From Nitrospirota bacterium (GTDB lineage: Bacteria > JACPQY01), in NCBI GenBank assembly GCA_016190245.1, contig JACPQY010000002.1:1-6945 (forward strand): 6,945 bases of DNA. Direction: 5' to 3'. Within the stretch, counting starts at the first letter, position 1. Every line of letters begins with the position of its first letter. Both the position numbers and the translations under genes were made by a program. A model generated the notes under the pieces. That model was not told the DNA's origin. It searched no databases and was given only the letters and a program-made list of their open reading frames with translations. Positions 217 to 6,945 of the stretch are shown here, one piece after another.

Positions 217-290
217 TGGCTGGGGGACTAGGATTCGAACCTAGATTGACGGATCCAGAGTCCGCTGTCCTGCCGTTGGACGATCCCCCA
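217..290 (-). tRNA. tRNA-Gln (anticodon CUG), CCA encoded
   Basis: The minus strand folds into a complete 74-nt cloverleaf. It has acceptor stem TGGGGGA/TCCCCCA, D stem GTCC/GGAC with a GG-containing loop, anticodon stem GCGGA/TCCGT with loop CTCTGGA (anticodon CTG), a 4-nt variable loop, T stem CTAGG/CCTAG with loop TTCGAAT, discriminator G and an encoded CCA end. The weak U1-A72 first pair and G73 are known glutamine tRNA identity features. It decodes CAG codons and is transcribed divergently from the M23 peptidase gene. It looks intact. Confidence 0.97.
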
Positions 291-3125: not shown

Positions 3126-3155
3126 TTGAAACACCGGCCCGCCGGGGAGCATAAT
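3126..3155 (+). promoter_or_regulatory. Promoter of the FapA-kinase-regulator operon
   Basis: TTGAAA (3126-3131, 5/6) and CATAAT (3150-3155, 5/6) are separated by 18 nt. Transcription would begin near 3162, about three bases before the ATG at 3165, implying a leaderless or nearly leaderless mRNA. The TTGAAA coincides with an in-frame TTG codon at 3126 that could be mistaken for an upstream start. Confidence 0.5.
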
Positions 3156-3164
3156 ACGATCCGG

Positions 3165-4640
3165 ATGCCGATTCAGCAGGAGACCCCCTCAGCGACCCTC
3201 CCCGACCCCACCGAGGGAGAATCCGTACGCGTCCCGATCAAGGTGGACATCTCCAGCGACGACATGGAAGCCTACATCTCGTTCGACCCGATGGACTTGA
3301 GGACAGGCATGGAGTCCAAGGTTGAAGCCATCCACCTGAAGGAGGCATTGAACAGCCGCAAGGTGCTGATGGGCATCATCCCCAAGCAGGCCCAACAGTG
3401 TATGGACATGATCCGCAAACTCGAAGCGTTCTCGGGCCTCCTCATCGCGAAAGGAACACTGCCTGAAGACGGAAAGGATGCGGAGTACGTCCCGTCCGAG
3501 AAGGTGGGTCGAACGGGCCCGCTCGTGACCGAGGAAGGCACGATCGACTACAAGGAGCATTCCACCATCCTGCCCGTGGTCAAGGGGGACGTTCTCGGCA
3601 CCAAACGACCCGCCACGCCGGGGAAAACAGGCTTCACCGTGACCGGCCGCGTTCTGCGCACCAAGCCGGGCGTGGACACCGCGCCGAAGCCCGGCACCAA
3701 CGTGGAGATCGAGAAAACCGAGGACGGCGGCTACATCTACAAGGCGGCGGCGGACGGCGGCTACCGCCTCGAACACAATACCGTGCACGTCTCACAGATC
3801 ACGGTGATCGACGGCGACGTGGACTACTCCACCGGCAACATCCGCTGCAACGGCGACCTCGATGTCAAGGGCGGAGTGGCCAGCGGGTTCAAGATCGAGG
3901 TTCAGGGCAACCTCGACGTGCACGAGGCCGTGGAGGCCGCCGAAATCACCGCAGGAGGCGACGTGCACGTTCACCGGGGCGTGAAAGGCCAGGGCTCGGC
4001 CAAGATCAAGTGCGGCCGCGATTTCCGGGCCATGTACGTGGAGCGAGCCACCCTCGAGGCCGGCCGACACGTGGACGTGGGCACCGCCCTCCTCGACTGC
4101 AAGGTGTCGGCCGGGGGAAAGGTCACCGTCCTTCGCGGGCGCGGCGTGATCATCGGCGGAGAGATCCGCGCGAGCCAGGGCGTGGAGGTTAAGCAACTCG
4201 GTTCCGACGTGGCCGGGCTGACCACCGTAGATGTGGGGATCGACTTCGGCCGGGAGAGGGAATTGAAAGCCGTCAACGAGGAAATCAAAGACGTGGAGAC
4301 CATGATCGCCAAGATCGAGCGGGCCGTGAGCACCGACCTCCTGAAAAAAGACGACCTGTCGTGGCTGCCGGCGGAGCGCATGTCGGCCGCCCAAAAGCTC
4401 CAGACCCGATGGAAAGAGCTGATCGCCCACCGCAACGAACTCCACCTCCGACGCGACAAGCTCAGCGGCGATGAGGGCGAAGGCAAGTACTCCCGCCCGA
4501 CCATCCGCGTCACCCAAAAGCTTTCCGCCCGGGTGCGCACCCGCTTCGCCCAGTCCACCTTCACCACGGACAGGGACTACTACAACGTCACGCTCTACGA
4601 AGACCCCGACCGGAAGGAAGTCCGACTCATCCAGAAATGA
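3165..4640 (+). CDS. FapA/DUF342 (COG1315) family beta-helix protein
   Basis: This 491-aa protein belongs to the FapA/DUF342 family. Vibrio FapA, described as linking flagellar assembly to sugar-PTS signalling, is the best-known member, but most members have no defined function. An N-terminal FapA_N region (about 22-200) carries the family signatures AKGTLPEDGKDA (95-106) and the VKGDVLG...PGKTGFTVTGRV segment (139-163). A right-handed beta-helix-like stretch follows (about 212-358), with repeats such as GDVDYSTGNI, GDLDVKGGV, GNLDVHEAVEAAE and GGDVHVHRGVKGQG. A coiled coil (about 364-435) and a short beta-rich tail complete it. No signal peptide or transmembrane helix is present. The ATG at 3165 is preferred over a TTG at 3126 because that TTG is the likely -35. 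It heads a three-gene operon and overlaps the histidine kinase by ATGA. No flagellar gene is nearby, so a motility role cannot be assumed. Confidence 0.88.
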   Translation: MPIQQETPSATLPDPTEGESVRVPIKVDISSDDMEAYISFDPMDLRTGMESKVEAIHLKEALNSRKVLMGIIPKQAQQCMDMIRKLEAFSGLLIAKGTLPEDGKDAEYVPSEKVGRTGPLVTEEGTIDYKEHSTILPVVKGDVLGTKRPATPGKTGFTVTGRVLRTKPGVDTAPKPGTNVEIEKTEDGGYIYKAAADGGYRLEHNTVHVSQITVIDGDVDYSTGNIRCNGDLDVKGGVASGFKIEVQGNLDVHEAVEAAEITAGGDVHVHRGVKGQGSAKIKCGRDFRAMYVERATLEAGRHVDVGTALLDCKVSAGGKVTVLRGRGVIIGGEIRASQGVEVKQLGSDVAGLTTVDVGIDFGRERELKAVNEEIKDVETMIAKIERAVSTDLLKKDDLSWLPAERMSAAQKLQTRWKELIAHRNELHLRRDKLSGDEGEGKYSRPTIRVTQKLSARVRTRFAQSTFTTDRDYYNVTLYEDPDRKEVRLIQK

Positions 4641-5884
4641 GCACCACAGCCAACGCCTTGACAGGTAGCAGCGAACCGACGACCATGACGCCCATGGCCG
4701 ATCCCTCCCCTTCCGACGTGGAGTTGCTCCACGAGCTCCGAGAAAGCGAGGAGCGCCTTTGGACGATGCTCGAAACGGCCGAGGAAGGCTTCGTCACCCT
4801 CGGGCCCGATTCCCGCGTCGTCTCGGCCAATACCGCGGCGCACACCCTGTTCGGTGTGGATTATGGCGAGCTGATGGGACAACCCGTCACCCGGTTCGTC
4901 CCGGAGGCTCATCGCGAGGACCTGGCCTTCCTCGCCGACGGAGACTCCAGGTCGAGGAGGAACGCTCCGTGGATCGGTCGGAGGCTCGAATGGACGCTGC
5001 GCGGCACCGAGGGCAACGACCGATTTGTAGAAGTGGAACTATCGCGGCACGTGACCCGCACGGGCGAGTACGTCTCCATGATCCTGCGCGACGTGACCGA
5101 GAGGATCAGGGCCGAGCGCGCCCTCAAAGCCTCCCACGCGGAACTGCAACGCGCCCTCGAAGACCTCAAGCGCGCCCAGTCCGCCCTCGTCGCCCAGGAG
5201 CGGTTCGCCGCGCTCGGCGAGCTCGCCCTCGGCGTCGCCCACGAGGTGAACAACCCCCTTCAGGGGTTCAAGGGGCGCCTTCAACTGATGGCCGATGACC
5301 TGCGCGAATGTCTCGGCGCGGAGCACATGGTCCTCAAGGACATTCGCCTCCTAGACGAGCAGGTGGACCGGATCGCGCGGATCGTGCAAGGTCTCCTCAC
5401 CTTCGCCCGGCCCAGCACAGCCAAACGCGCCGCCGCCGATCTGAAGCAGGTGATCGCGACCGTGGCCGAGCTCGCGGCCTCCCCCGTCCGCGCCGCCGGC
5501 CTCACCCTCGACATACAAACCGACGCGGCATTGCCCACGGTGCAGATCGACGTCCAGCAGGTACAGCAGGTCATTCTCAACCTACTGCAAAACGCGATCC
5601 AAGCCACACCCAAAGGCGGCCGGATCTCCGCGAGGACCCTCGCGCAGGACGGCTGGGCCGTGATCGAGGTGAGCGACACCGGTTGCGGAATCCCGGCGAC
5701 CGAGTTGAACAAGATCTTTGAACCCTTCTACACGACGAAAGAAAAAGGGACCGGACTCGGCCTGGCGCTCAGCCGCAGCATCGTCATTCAGCATGGGGGC
5801 AGGCTGGATGCCGAGAGCGCGCTGGGCAAGGGTTCCACCTTCCGGGTGAGGATCCCGCTCCCAGAAGGGGCCGACCGGTCATGA
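4637..5884 (+). CDS. Soluble PAS-domain sensor histidine kinase
   Basis: This 415-aa cytoplasmic kinase has no transmembrane segment. A PAS domain spans about 38-155, ending in the usual ILRDVTERIRAERAL hinge, and is followed by a coiled-coil linker (about 158-190). The HisKA domain holds the phosphoacceptor H202 in GVAHEVNNPL. The HATPase_c domain has the N box NLLQNA (N315, N319), G1 DTGCGIP (D347, G349, G351), F box FEPFY (361-365) and G2 GTGLGLALS (371-379). All catalytic boxes are intact, so it should autophosphorylate and pass phosphate to D56 of the receiver encoded immediately downstream. The PAS ligand cannot be told from sequence. Its ATG overlaps the FapA stop and its stop overlaps the next ATG, implying translational coupling on both sides. 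A purine-rich GGAAGGAAG lies at 4612-4620, too far upstream to be an ideal ribosome site. Confidence 0.93.
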   Translation: MSTTANALTGSSEPTTMTPMADPSPSDVELLHELRESEERLWTMLETAEEGFVTLGPDSRVVSANTAAHTLFGVDYGELMGQPVTRFVPEAHREDLAFLADGDSRSRRNAPWIGRRLEWTLRGTEGNDRFVEVELSRHVTRTGEYVSMILRDVTERIRAERALKASHAELQRALEDLKRAQSALVAQERFAALGELALGVAHEVNNPLQGFKGRLQLMADDLRECLGAEHMVLKDIRLLDEQVDRIARIVQGLLTFARPSTAKRAAADLKQVIATVAELAASPVRAAGLTLDIQTDAALPTVQIDVQQVQQVILNLLQNAIQATPKGGRISARTLAQDGWAVIEVSDTGCGIPATELNKIFEPFYTTKEKGTGLGLALSRSIVIQHGGRLDAESALGKGSTFRVRIPLPEGADRS

Positions 5885-6699
5885 CCGAACCCAAACGAAA
5901 AATCCTGGTGGCGGACGATGAGGAGCTCATCCGCCGCAACCTCCAGGATCTGCTCGATCGGAAGGGCTACGAGGTGGTGACATGCGCCGATGGCCGCGAG
6001 GCGCTCGACGCTTTCAAGGTCCAACCGTTCGATGCCGCCATCATCGATCTGCGCATGCCGGAGATCCAGGGCCAGGAGTTGCTCGAATACATGAAGGCGC
6101 ACGATCCGTCCGTGCCGGTCGTCGTCCTCACCGGCTACGGCACGGTCGAGAACGCGATCGAGTGCATGAAAGCCGGGGCGTTCAACTTCCTGTGCAAACC
6201 CTGCGGCAACCTGGACATTCTCAAGGTGGTCGAGAAGGCCGTCACGCATCGCGACAATCTGGTCGTGGAGGACGTCCTCGCCCGCACGGCCACGCTGAGC
6301 CTGCGCGTGGCCATCGGCCTCACGGCGGAGAGCAAGCGCGCCGCCATCACCACGTTGCTGCACCTGTGCGCAAAAACCCCGTACAACCACGACCGCTCGG
6401 CGATCTCGGTGGCCGTGGAGGAGGCGCTCTCCAACGCCTTCAAACACGGCAACAAGGGCGACGCGAACAAGAAAGTCTGGCTCGCCGCCGATATCAACGA
6501 AGAAGCCCTCCGCGTCCGTGTGGAAGACGAAGGCCAGGGGTTCAACTACCAGGAGGCCATCGCGCACCTGGAGGACGCCGACGCCCAGGGCGAGTACGGC
6601 AGCGGCCTGTTTCTCATCCAGCAGAGCATGGACAAGATCGCGTTCGAAGAGGGAGGCCGCGCGATCGTGATGACCCGGTTCCCGACCAATAGCGGCTAG
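5881..6699 (+). CDS. Receiver domain fused to RsbW/SpoIIAB-like anti-sigma ATPase
   Basis: This 272-aa response regulator has an unusual output. The receiver (1-125) has the acidic pocket D12-D13, phosphoacceptor D56 in IIDLRMP, T84 in LTGYG and K106 in LCKPCG. After a short linker, an HATPase_c_2 domain (about 135-270) resembles SpoIIAB/RsbW: N box VEEALSNAFKHGN with the putative catalytic E181 and N185, G1 VEDEGQGF (D216, G218, G220), and lid YGSGLFLIQQSMDKI. Members of that family bind sigma factors or phosphorylate STAS anti-anti-sigma proteins. There is no PP2C phosphatase domain and no DNA-binding domain, so phosphorylation of D56 probably gates the ATPase directly. It overlaps the upstream histidine kinase by ATGA, its obvious phosphodonor. 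The sigma or STAS partner is not in the window. An in-trans ATPase with another target cannot be excluded. The TAG stop lies in the CTAG that starts the next repeat. Confidence 0.93.
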   Translation: MTEPKRKILVADDEELIRRNLQDLLDRKGYEVVTCADGREALDAFKVQPFDAAIIDLRMPEIQGQELLEYMKAHDPSVPVVVLTGYGTVENAIECMKAGAFNFLCKPCGNLDILKVVEKAVTHRDNLVVEDVLARTATLSLRVAIGLTAESKRAAITTLLHLCAKTPYNHDRSAISVAVEEALSNAFKHGNKGDANKKVWLAADINEEALRVRVEDEGQGFNYQEAIAHLEDADAQGEYGSGLFLIQQSMDKIAFEEGGRAIVMTRFPTNSG

Positions 6700-6814
6700 G
6701 CTCTGTTTGAAAACCCTCCGCCGGCCACCGCAATCCTTGTAGGGGAGGGTGCTTGCACCCTCCCTCCCCCCGGGCAGGTCCACCTGTCCGCCGTGGCGGA
6801 AGGACCCGCCCCTA
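6696..6814. mobile_element. Second, right-truncated copy of the MITE-like element
   Basis: This copy matches 2656-2756 closely from CTAGGCTCTGTTTGAAAAC through the CCCCTA edge of the second hairpin. It has a few single-base differences and an 18-bp insertion, itself hairpin-forming (TCCGCC/GGCGGA at 6787-6800), between GGTCC and AAGGACC. The right inverted repeat is absent; the sequence passes instead into the 141-bp terminal repeat at CCCCTAT. The first hairpin is a 10-bp stem (6743-6752/6755-6764, TT loop). As in the other copy, the TAG stop of the preceding gene is contained in the starting CTAG. Confidence 0.72.
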
Positions 6815-6945
6815 TCTCTGAAAGCGGCTGCCCTGTCAAGGCACGGTTTTGTGCCCTTTCTTTCTCTTTTTCATCTCTCCTCGTCTTTCCTCCTGAAACT
6901 TGCCCGTTTGGAAGCTATTAGACGCGACTTCTCAGGGGGGGGTAT
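6805..6945. repeat. Right copy of the 141-bp terminal inverted repeat
   Basis: This is the exact reverse complement of 1-141. It starts inside the CCCGCCCCTAT edge of the truncated MITE-like copy and runs to the contig end. In the outward direction it presents the same hairpin, pyrimidine tract and eight-G run as the left copy. Both copies lie downstream of outward-transcribed genes (tRNA-Gln on the left, the operon on the right). Confidence 0.95.
6840..6872 (+). terminator. Possible terminator downstream of the kinase operon
   Basis: GGCAC (6840-6844), loop GGTTTT and GTGCC (6851-6855) form a short hairpin followed by an interrupted T-rich run (6856-6872). The stem is weak. The stronger GC hairpins of the preceding repeat (6743-6764 and 6787-6800) may contribute more to 3'-end formation. 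It is identical to the candidate downstream of tRNA-Gln. Confidence 0.35.

Follow-up and report, generated by a model that had tools for sequence, protein, structure and literature searches.

A receiver fused to an RsbW/SpoIIAB-like ATPase, encoded behind fapA and a histidine kinase gene in a Nitrospirota bacterium

The 6,945-nt stretch of DNA analysed here (the window; contig JACPQY010000002.1 of the Nitrospirota assembly GCA_016190245.1) encodes a response regulator in which an N-terminal receiver is joined to a C-terminal ATPase of the RsbW/SpoIIAB family (REC:RsbW), and its gene closes a run that begins with fapA and a histidine kinase gene. With a probability of about one half, I read this protein as a kinase-driven regulator of the LvrC/TciR type that acts by capturing a partner protein. 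REC:RsbW proteins form a widespread family; this member, with its kinase and FapA operon and apparently no free STAS protein in its genome, narrows the choices of what such regulators may act upon.

Results

The regulator gene and its two domains

The GC content of the regulator ORF at the three codon positions is 0.65/0.37/0.88 and resembles that of the neighbouring genes, so the frame was taken to be coding (Table 1). Pfam assigned residues 8-117 to Response_reg (E 1.3e-29) and residues 171-265 to HATPase_c_2 (E 2.6e-19), while the general HATPase_c model reached 30.1 bits, 40 bits less than HATPase_c_2; HisKA/DHp, PP2C, sigma-like and DNA-binding domains were not found in the protein by Pfam. 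A preliminary description of this DNA had read from motifs a complete receiver and a complete anti-sigma-type ATPase, with no phosphatase in the fusion, and all of this was borne out: the acidic pocket (D12 and D13), the phospho-acceptor D56, T84 and K106 are in place, as are E181 and N185 of the N box, DEGQG of the G1 box (216-220), and GSGLF of the G2 box (240-244). The aromatic switch residue of the receiver is F103, three positions before K106. Across 40 aligned fusions, little or no variation is seen at D56, K106, E181, N185, H189, N191, D216, G218, G220, and G242, and in a genome-wide profile search this protein was the best HATPase_c_2 match of its genome (71.7 bits, with the runner-up at 32.6). 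The two-domain reading of the ORF is confirmed, far beyond chance.

Table 1. Features of the window around the REC:RsbW gene.
Feature	Position (nt)	Strand	Basis
FapA (DUF342) gene	3126..4640	+	FapA 197.9 bits, FapA_N 113.8 bits; start uncertain, TTG 3126 or in-frame ATG near 3165
PAS-HisKA-HATPase_c histidine kinase gene, H202 in HEVNNP	4637..5884	+	Pfam; probable cognate kinase
REC:RsbW response regulator gene, 272 aa	5881..6699	+	ATG to TAG ORF; Pfam; match to 9QIH; structure model
Receiver domain, residues 8-117	5902..6231	+	Pfam Response_reg 103 bits; D12 D13, D56, T84, F103, K106
Long connecting helix, residues 110-136, from the last receiver helix into the ATPase	6208..6288	+	Predicted secondary structure
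RsbW/SpoIIAB-like ATPase domain, residues 139-266	6295..6678	+	HATPase_c_2 69.9 bits; comparison of C-terminal model
Dispersed MITE-like repeat and contig-end repeat, directly 3' of the regulator gene	6696..6945		Repeat search

Predicted fold

The full-length protein was modelled with AlphaFold2 from an alignment of 40 fusions, which resulted in a confident model (mean pLDDT 93.7, pTM 0.79) with an uninterrupted helix between the two domains. Foldseek ranked PDB 9QIH, the response regulator LvrC of Leptospira, first (E 1.4e-20), and no other solved chain of this architecture matched from one end of the protein to the other. The TM-score between the two was only 0.46, and the relative placement of the domains therefore differs or is not fixed. 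At the level of sequence, a profile of the 40 fusions matched 9QIH with 197.8 bits over positions 4-271, and the REC:RsbW sequence by itself with 69 bits over 7-260. In the PDB sequence file the molecule name given for 9QIH is SenB, so a search by name does not bring it up.

Since receiver domains filled the structural alignment of the full-length protein, the C-terminal domain was also modelled alone (pLDDT 83.8). Its closest relatives were SpoIIAB (Z 16.8), RsbW (Z 16.1), LvrC (Z 15.3), and UsfX (Z 14.6), followed by SiaB (Z 11.9), while the best catalytic (CA) domain of a histidine kinase reached Z 8.9. Scores this far above those of kinase CA domains put the domain on the anti-sigma/serine-kinase side. 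Whether the C-terminus would fare better as a HisKA-linked HATPase_c, a question raised by the preliminary description, is answered in the negative by profile, by sequence comparison with solved structures, and by predicted fold, and the assignment to the RsbW/SpoIIAB family is firm.

The operon and the end of the contig

The fapA and kinase genes overlap by 4 nt (ATGA, 4637-4640), and so do the kinase and regulator genes (ATGA, 5881-5884), which makes co-translation of all three likely. The upstream kinase is a soluble PAS histidine kinase and, judging by the gene overlap, is probably the phosphodonor of the REC:RsbW protein. The ORF list, Pfam, and a sigma search revealed no sigma-factor gene on the whole 6945-nt contig. 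At the other end of the window, a tRNA-Gln gene (CTG; 217-290, minus strand) lies ahead of a gene for an M23 peptidase.

The repeat behind the regulator gene is a MITE-like element of ~160 nt with the terminal inverted repeats CTAGGCTCTGTTTGAAAAC ... GTTTTCAAACAGAGCCTAG, often located at contig ends and present at 23 places in the host genome, and the window holds copies at 2656-2814 and from 6696 onward. These copies supply the TAG stop codons of both a cysteine desulfurase gene and the REC:RsbW gene, the latter TAG sitting within the CTAG boundary of the element. The contig stops 246 nt past this stop codon, within repeats, so a further partner gene downstream would not be visible. Contamination, which was considered given the shortness of the contig, is unlikely: an 84-nt repeat of the contig occurs at 23 places in the host genome, and neither this repeat nor the MITE-like element was found in the genome of a sister bacterium (G001). 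The two contig ends form a perfect 141-nt inverted repeat (1-141 and 6805-6945); 141 nt is a common maximum k-mer length in assembly, and the two ends probably lead into one shared repeat node.

Distribution and neighbourhoods of the fusions

A scan for fusions using one genome per species returned at least 80 loci; a single ORF scored with both domains in at least 45 of them, and additional members align from end to end. Among the matches listed, fusions occur in Spirochaetota, Acidobacteriota, Planctomycetota, Nitrospinota, SAR324, Pseudomonadota, Delongbacteria, and other phyla. The alignment separates two classes, one with a ~30-residue insert after the HGN motif and one that is compact: LvrC and a proteobacterial clade (L077, L092, L096, L105, L108, L109, and L110), among others, carry the insert, while the window protein is compact. 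In some relatives (L023/L163, L024, and L047) the receiver-like domain has no acidic pocket. Plasmid searches brought up mostly ordinary response regulators when the full protein was the query, and just three distant RsbW-type matches when the ATPase domain was used by itself; viral contigs returned no match.

In both trees the branch of the window protein is long and its placement unresolved, for which reason conclusions at the level of clades were not drawn. The ATPase-only tree places it nearest to rows of other fusions, and the label that marks fusions is clustered (6 changes compared to 19.9 when shuffled), which does not by itself establish a single fusion event. A histidine kinase gene directly adjoins the fusion in the window and at eight other loci (L061, L069, L073, L077, L080, L092, L096, and L109), but this setting is scattered, as the kinase-neighbour label required 8 changes on the tree and did no better than shuffled labels. 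PP2C and/or STAS genes lie near the fusions of L048, L049, L050, L053, and L110, and unrelated neighbours surround many others. A REC:PP2C gene paired with the REC:RsbW gene is common to L048 and L050, which come from two deltaproteobacterial-type genomes, and in L050 a NUDIX hydrolase gene is next.

Candidate partners in the host genome

The window is an entire contig of a 3.29-Mb assembly that is 84.8% complete. The preliminary description had named STAS and sigma-factor genes of the genome as candidate partners, and here the outcome was divided: sigma factors are encoded, while in this assembly neither a free-standing STAS protein (profile search, E up to 10) nor a SpoIIE/RsbU-type PP2C phosphatase was found. 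The sigma factors are RpoD, FliA (beside FlhF), and three ECFs, two of which adjoin zf-HC2 zinc-finger proteins typical of anti-sigmas. FlgM is encoded as well, and its presence weakens the idea that the REC:RsbW protein substitutes for it as an anti-sigma-28.

The STAS matches of the host amounted to a domain of a SulP permease and a FabF-like ketosynthase matched by chance, the latter not below E 0.9; STAS_2 had zero matches. The one real STAS match was rejected as a free antagonist, being part of a SulP-family permease whose tail is cNMP-binding-like, and the single weak match to the SpoIIE model was rejected as well, being a Stp1-type PP2C. The sister genome, 97% complete, has STAS only within two longer proteins, one of them a histidine kinase and the other an ORF the size of a permease, and the REC:RsbW fusion was absent from it. 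Without a free STAS or a SpoIIE phosphatase found, a classical STAS kinase/phosphatase cycle is doubtful in this host; the absences come from an 84.8% complete assembly in which the contig ends behind the regulator gene, and are suggestive only. STAS matches were present in 35 of the 36 other fusion-bearing genomes, many as short ORFs, and given that some fusions also lie beside STAS/PP2C genes, kinase activity towards STAS may be the ancestral use of the fusions. One of these surveys showed an unusual expansion: the 7.6-Mb genome of L070 (SAR324 cluster) has at least 96 STAS-domain matches, mostly free-standing ORFs of 110-150 aa.

FapA and a link to motility

FapA had been picked out from the window before any other locus was inspected. 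At L049, the nearest row in the tree, a STAS gene sits directly behind the fusion and the order is REC:RsbW-STAS-FapA, with gaps of ~30 nt. At L163 (G134, 1-10560) one run reads CheA-CheW-HEAT-CheR-CheB-REC:RsbW-STAS-FapA, in which the REC:RsbW protein is degenerate and the FapA is a Jag_N:FapA protein of 1131 aa. L048, which gave the best tblastn match, follows a CheW-CheR-CheD-CheB run and a REC:PP2C gene. Two FapA neighbourhoods among ~44 other loci correspond to a chance P of about 0.006 if two FapA genes per 3000-gene genome are taken, this copy number being an assumption. Taken together, the REC:RsbW-STAS-FapA clusters of L049 and of the L163 chemotaxis operon suggest a link to motility.

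Vibrio FapA binds EIIA-Glc only when EIIA-Glc is dephosphorylated (PMC6877527), and the polar landmark HubP recruits FapA, according to a title cited in PMC8789113. State-dependent binding of EIIA-Glc and recruitment by HubP make FapA a plausible client of a switch protein. A link between REC:RsbW proteins and FapA or motility was not found described in a search of open-access papers, which is weak evidence given that scope.

Discussion

Proposed mechanism and alternatives

In the reading favoured here, the upstream kinase would phosphorylate D56 of the receiver, and the phosphorylated receiver, by way of the long connecting helix, would alter how it packs on the RsbW-like dimer. This repacking would open or close the partner-binding face of the RsbW-like domain, in whichever direction the switch runs, and the output would most likely be reversible capture of a partner rather than DNA binding. 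As the genome apparently has no free STAS protein, the regulator should act by directly capturing either a sigma factor or a motility protein. A sigma factor (FliA or an ECF sigma) is somewhat the likeliest partner, and the operon-mate FapA is the main alternative; the slight lead of the sigma factor comes from the nearest fold relatives, which bind sigma factors, and from the missing free STAS. Against sigma capture, FliA already has FlgM and two of the ECFs have their zinc-finger neighbours, leaving L154 as the only ECF that looks orphaned. With the N box intact, serine/threonine kinase activity is possible whether the partner is a sigma factor, FapA, or a STAS protein.

A canonical partner switch with a receiver as its input, in which the RsbW domain is the kinase of a STAS protein encoded in the portion of the genome missing from the assembly or past the contig end, together with a matching phosphatase, is rather unlikely. 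The intact N box (E181/N185) and nucleotide motifs agree with it, as do the nearly universal STAS matches of fusion-bearing genomes, the STAS gene next to the L049 fusion, and the STAS/PP2C genes near L048, L050, L053, and L110, and both the incomplete assembly and the 246 nt left after the stop codon provide room for the required genes. However, within what has been assembled, the permease domain and the chance match are the only STAS hits and a SpoIIE-type phosphatase was not found, and the more complete sister genome likewise has STAS only in longer proteins, although it also has no fusion. A classical cycle, with STAS phosphorylated by the kinase and dephosphorylated by a PP2C, is accordingly the less likely course in this genome.

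That the regulator instead binds or phosphorylates FapA, or a partner of FapA, and so steers the assembly or placement of flagella without any sigma factor is an unlikely reading, but one to which several observations point: the single operon with its 4-nt overlaps, the L049 and L163 clusters, the position of L048 behind chemotaxis genes, the binding of EIIA-Glc by Vibrio FapA in one phosphorylation state only, and the FliA, FlhF, and FlgM proteins encoded by the host, which would fit a motility output. The link is nonetheless confined to two of ~44 other loci and its P value depends on an assumed copy number; operon partners need not be targets, and DUF342 proteins are also found in unrelated settings. 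Its narrower form, a two-component-driven RsbW switch working without STAS and PP2C and with FapA as its target in place of a sigma factor, is quite unlikely; if true, it would give the RsbW fold an output not seen before and, outside Vibrio, add a novel type of input to FapA/DUF342, and the recurring REC:RsbW-STAS-FapA cluster makes the question of the target testable in relatives. Finally, the 30.1-bit HATPase_c match and the frequency of receiver-first kinases such as LvrB could be taken to indicate a degraded hybrid histidine kinase with an ordinary HATPase_c and no anti-sigma relationship. This is extremely improbable: HisKA is absent, HATPase_c_2 scores 40 bits higher, the fold favours SpoIIAB/RsbW by 7-8 Z units, and the two-domain layout recurs in more than 40 relatives; an ordinary histidine-kinase ATPase was rejected for the C-terminus on the Pfam scores and fold Z.

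Comparison with known systems

RsbW, SpoIIAB, and UsfX share their fold and catalytic residues with the C-terminal domain of the window protein, but those are free-standing proteins under the control of STAS antagonists, whereas the window ATPase is fused to a receiver, which sets it apart from stand-alone anti-sigma kinases, and a STAS gene was not found in its host. SiaB of Pseudomonas aeruginosa also has the RsbW-like fold, without a receiver; it is a partner-switch kinase with a non-sigma output that works with the phosphatase SiaA and the STAS protein SiaC. In PhyR, a receiver controls the balance of sigma and anti-sigma factors via a sigma-like decoy domain, which is absent from the window protein by Pfam. 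SypE of Vibrio fischeri combines an RsbW-like domain and a receiver as the window protein does, but additionally has a PP2C domain, absent here, and acts on the STAS protein SypA (PMC12826045).

The preliminary description had regarded the architecture as unusual, which did not hold: the REC:RsbW architecture is not new, and the motility link is the part for which the open-access papers searched gave no earlier description. REC:RsbW regulators have been published as TciR (PMC12826045, J Bacteriol 2025) and LvrC (PMC13269768, Nat Commun 2026), the former paper counts 100 proteins of this layout, and by its account the layout was noted already in Galperin's 2006 census. TciR of Vogesella indigofera consists of a receiver and an RsbW-like domain, acts genetically downstream of the kinase TciK, and belongs to a host reported to be without RsbV (PMC12826045). 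By description, it resembles the window protein in its domains and in its operon position directly behind its kinase, and differs in controlling indigoidine and in a two-gene operon without FapA. LvrC (LIC11110, 9QIH) is phosphorylated by LvrB in vitro, its crystal structure is solved, and it is proposed to reprogramme Leptospira transcription via a sigma factor (PMC13269768). It is ~21% identical to the window protein, carries the insert of ~30 residues that follows the HG motif and is missing from the window protein, and is part of a LvrA-LvrB phosphorelay, unlike the setting seen here. Nevertheless, both combine a receiver that has a canonical phospho-acceptor and an aromatic switch Phe with an RsbW-like Bergerat domain, and while LvrC is driven by a histidine kinase, the window protein lies beside a kinase gene that would be its counterpart. 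An N-terminal receiver with its Asp, a C-terminal RsbW Bergerat domain, similarity to LvrC across both domains, and an adjoining kinase gene are all found in the window, and place its regulator with the LvrC/TciR type.
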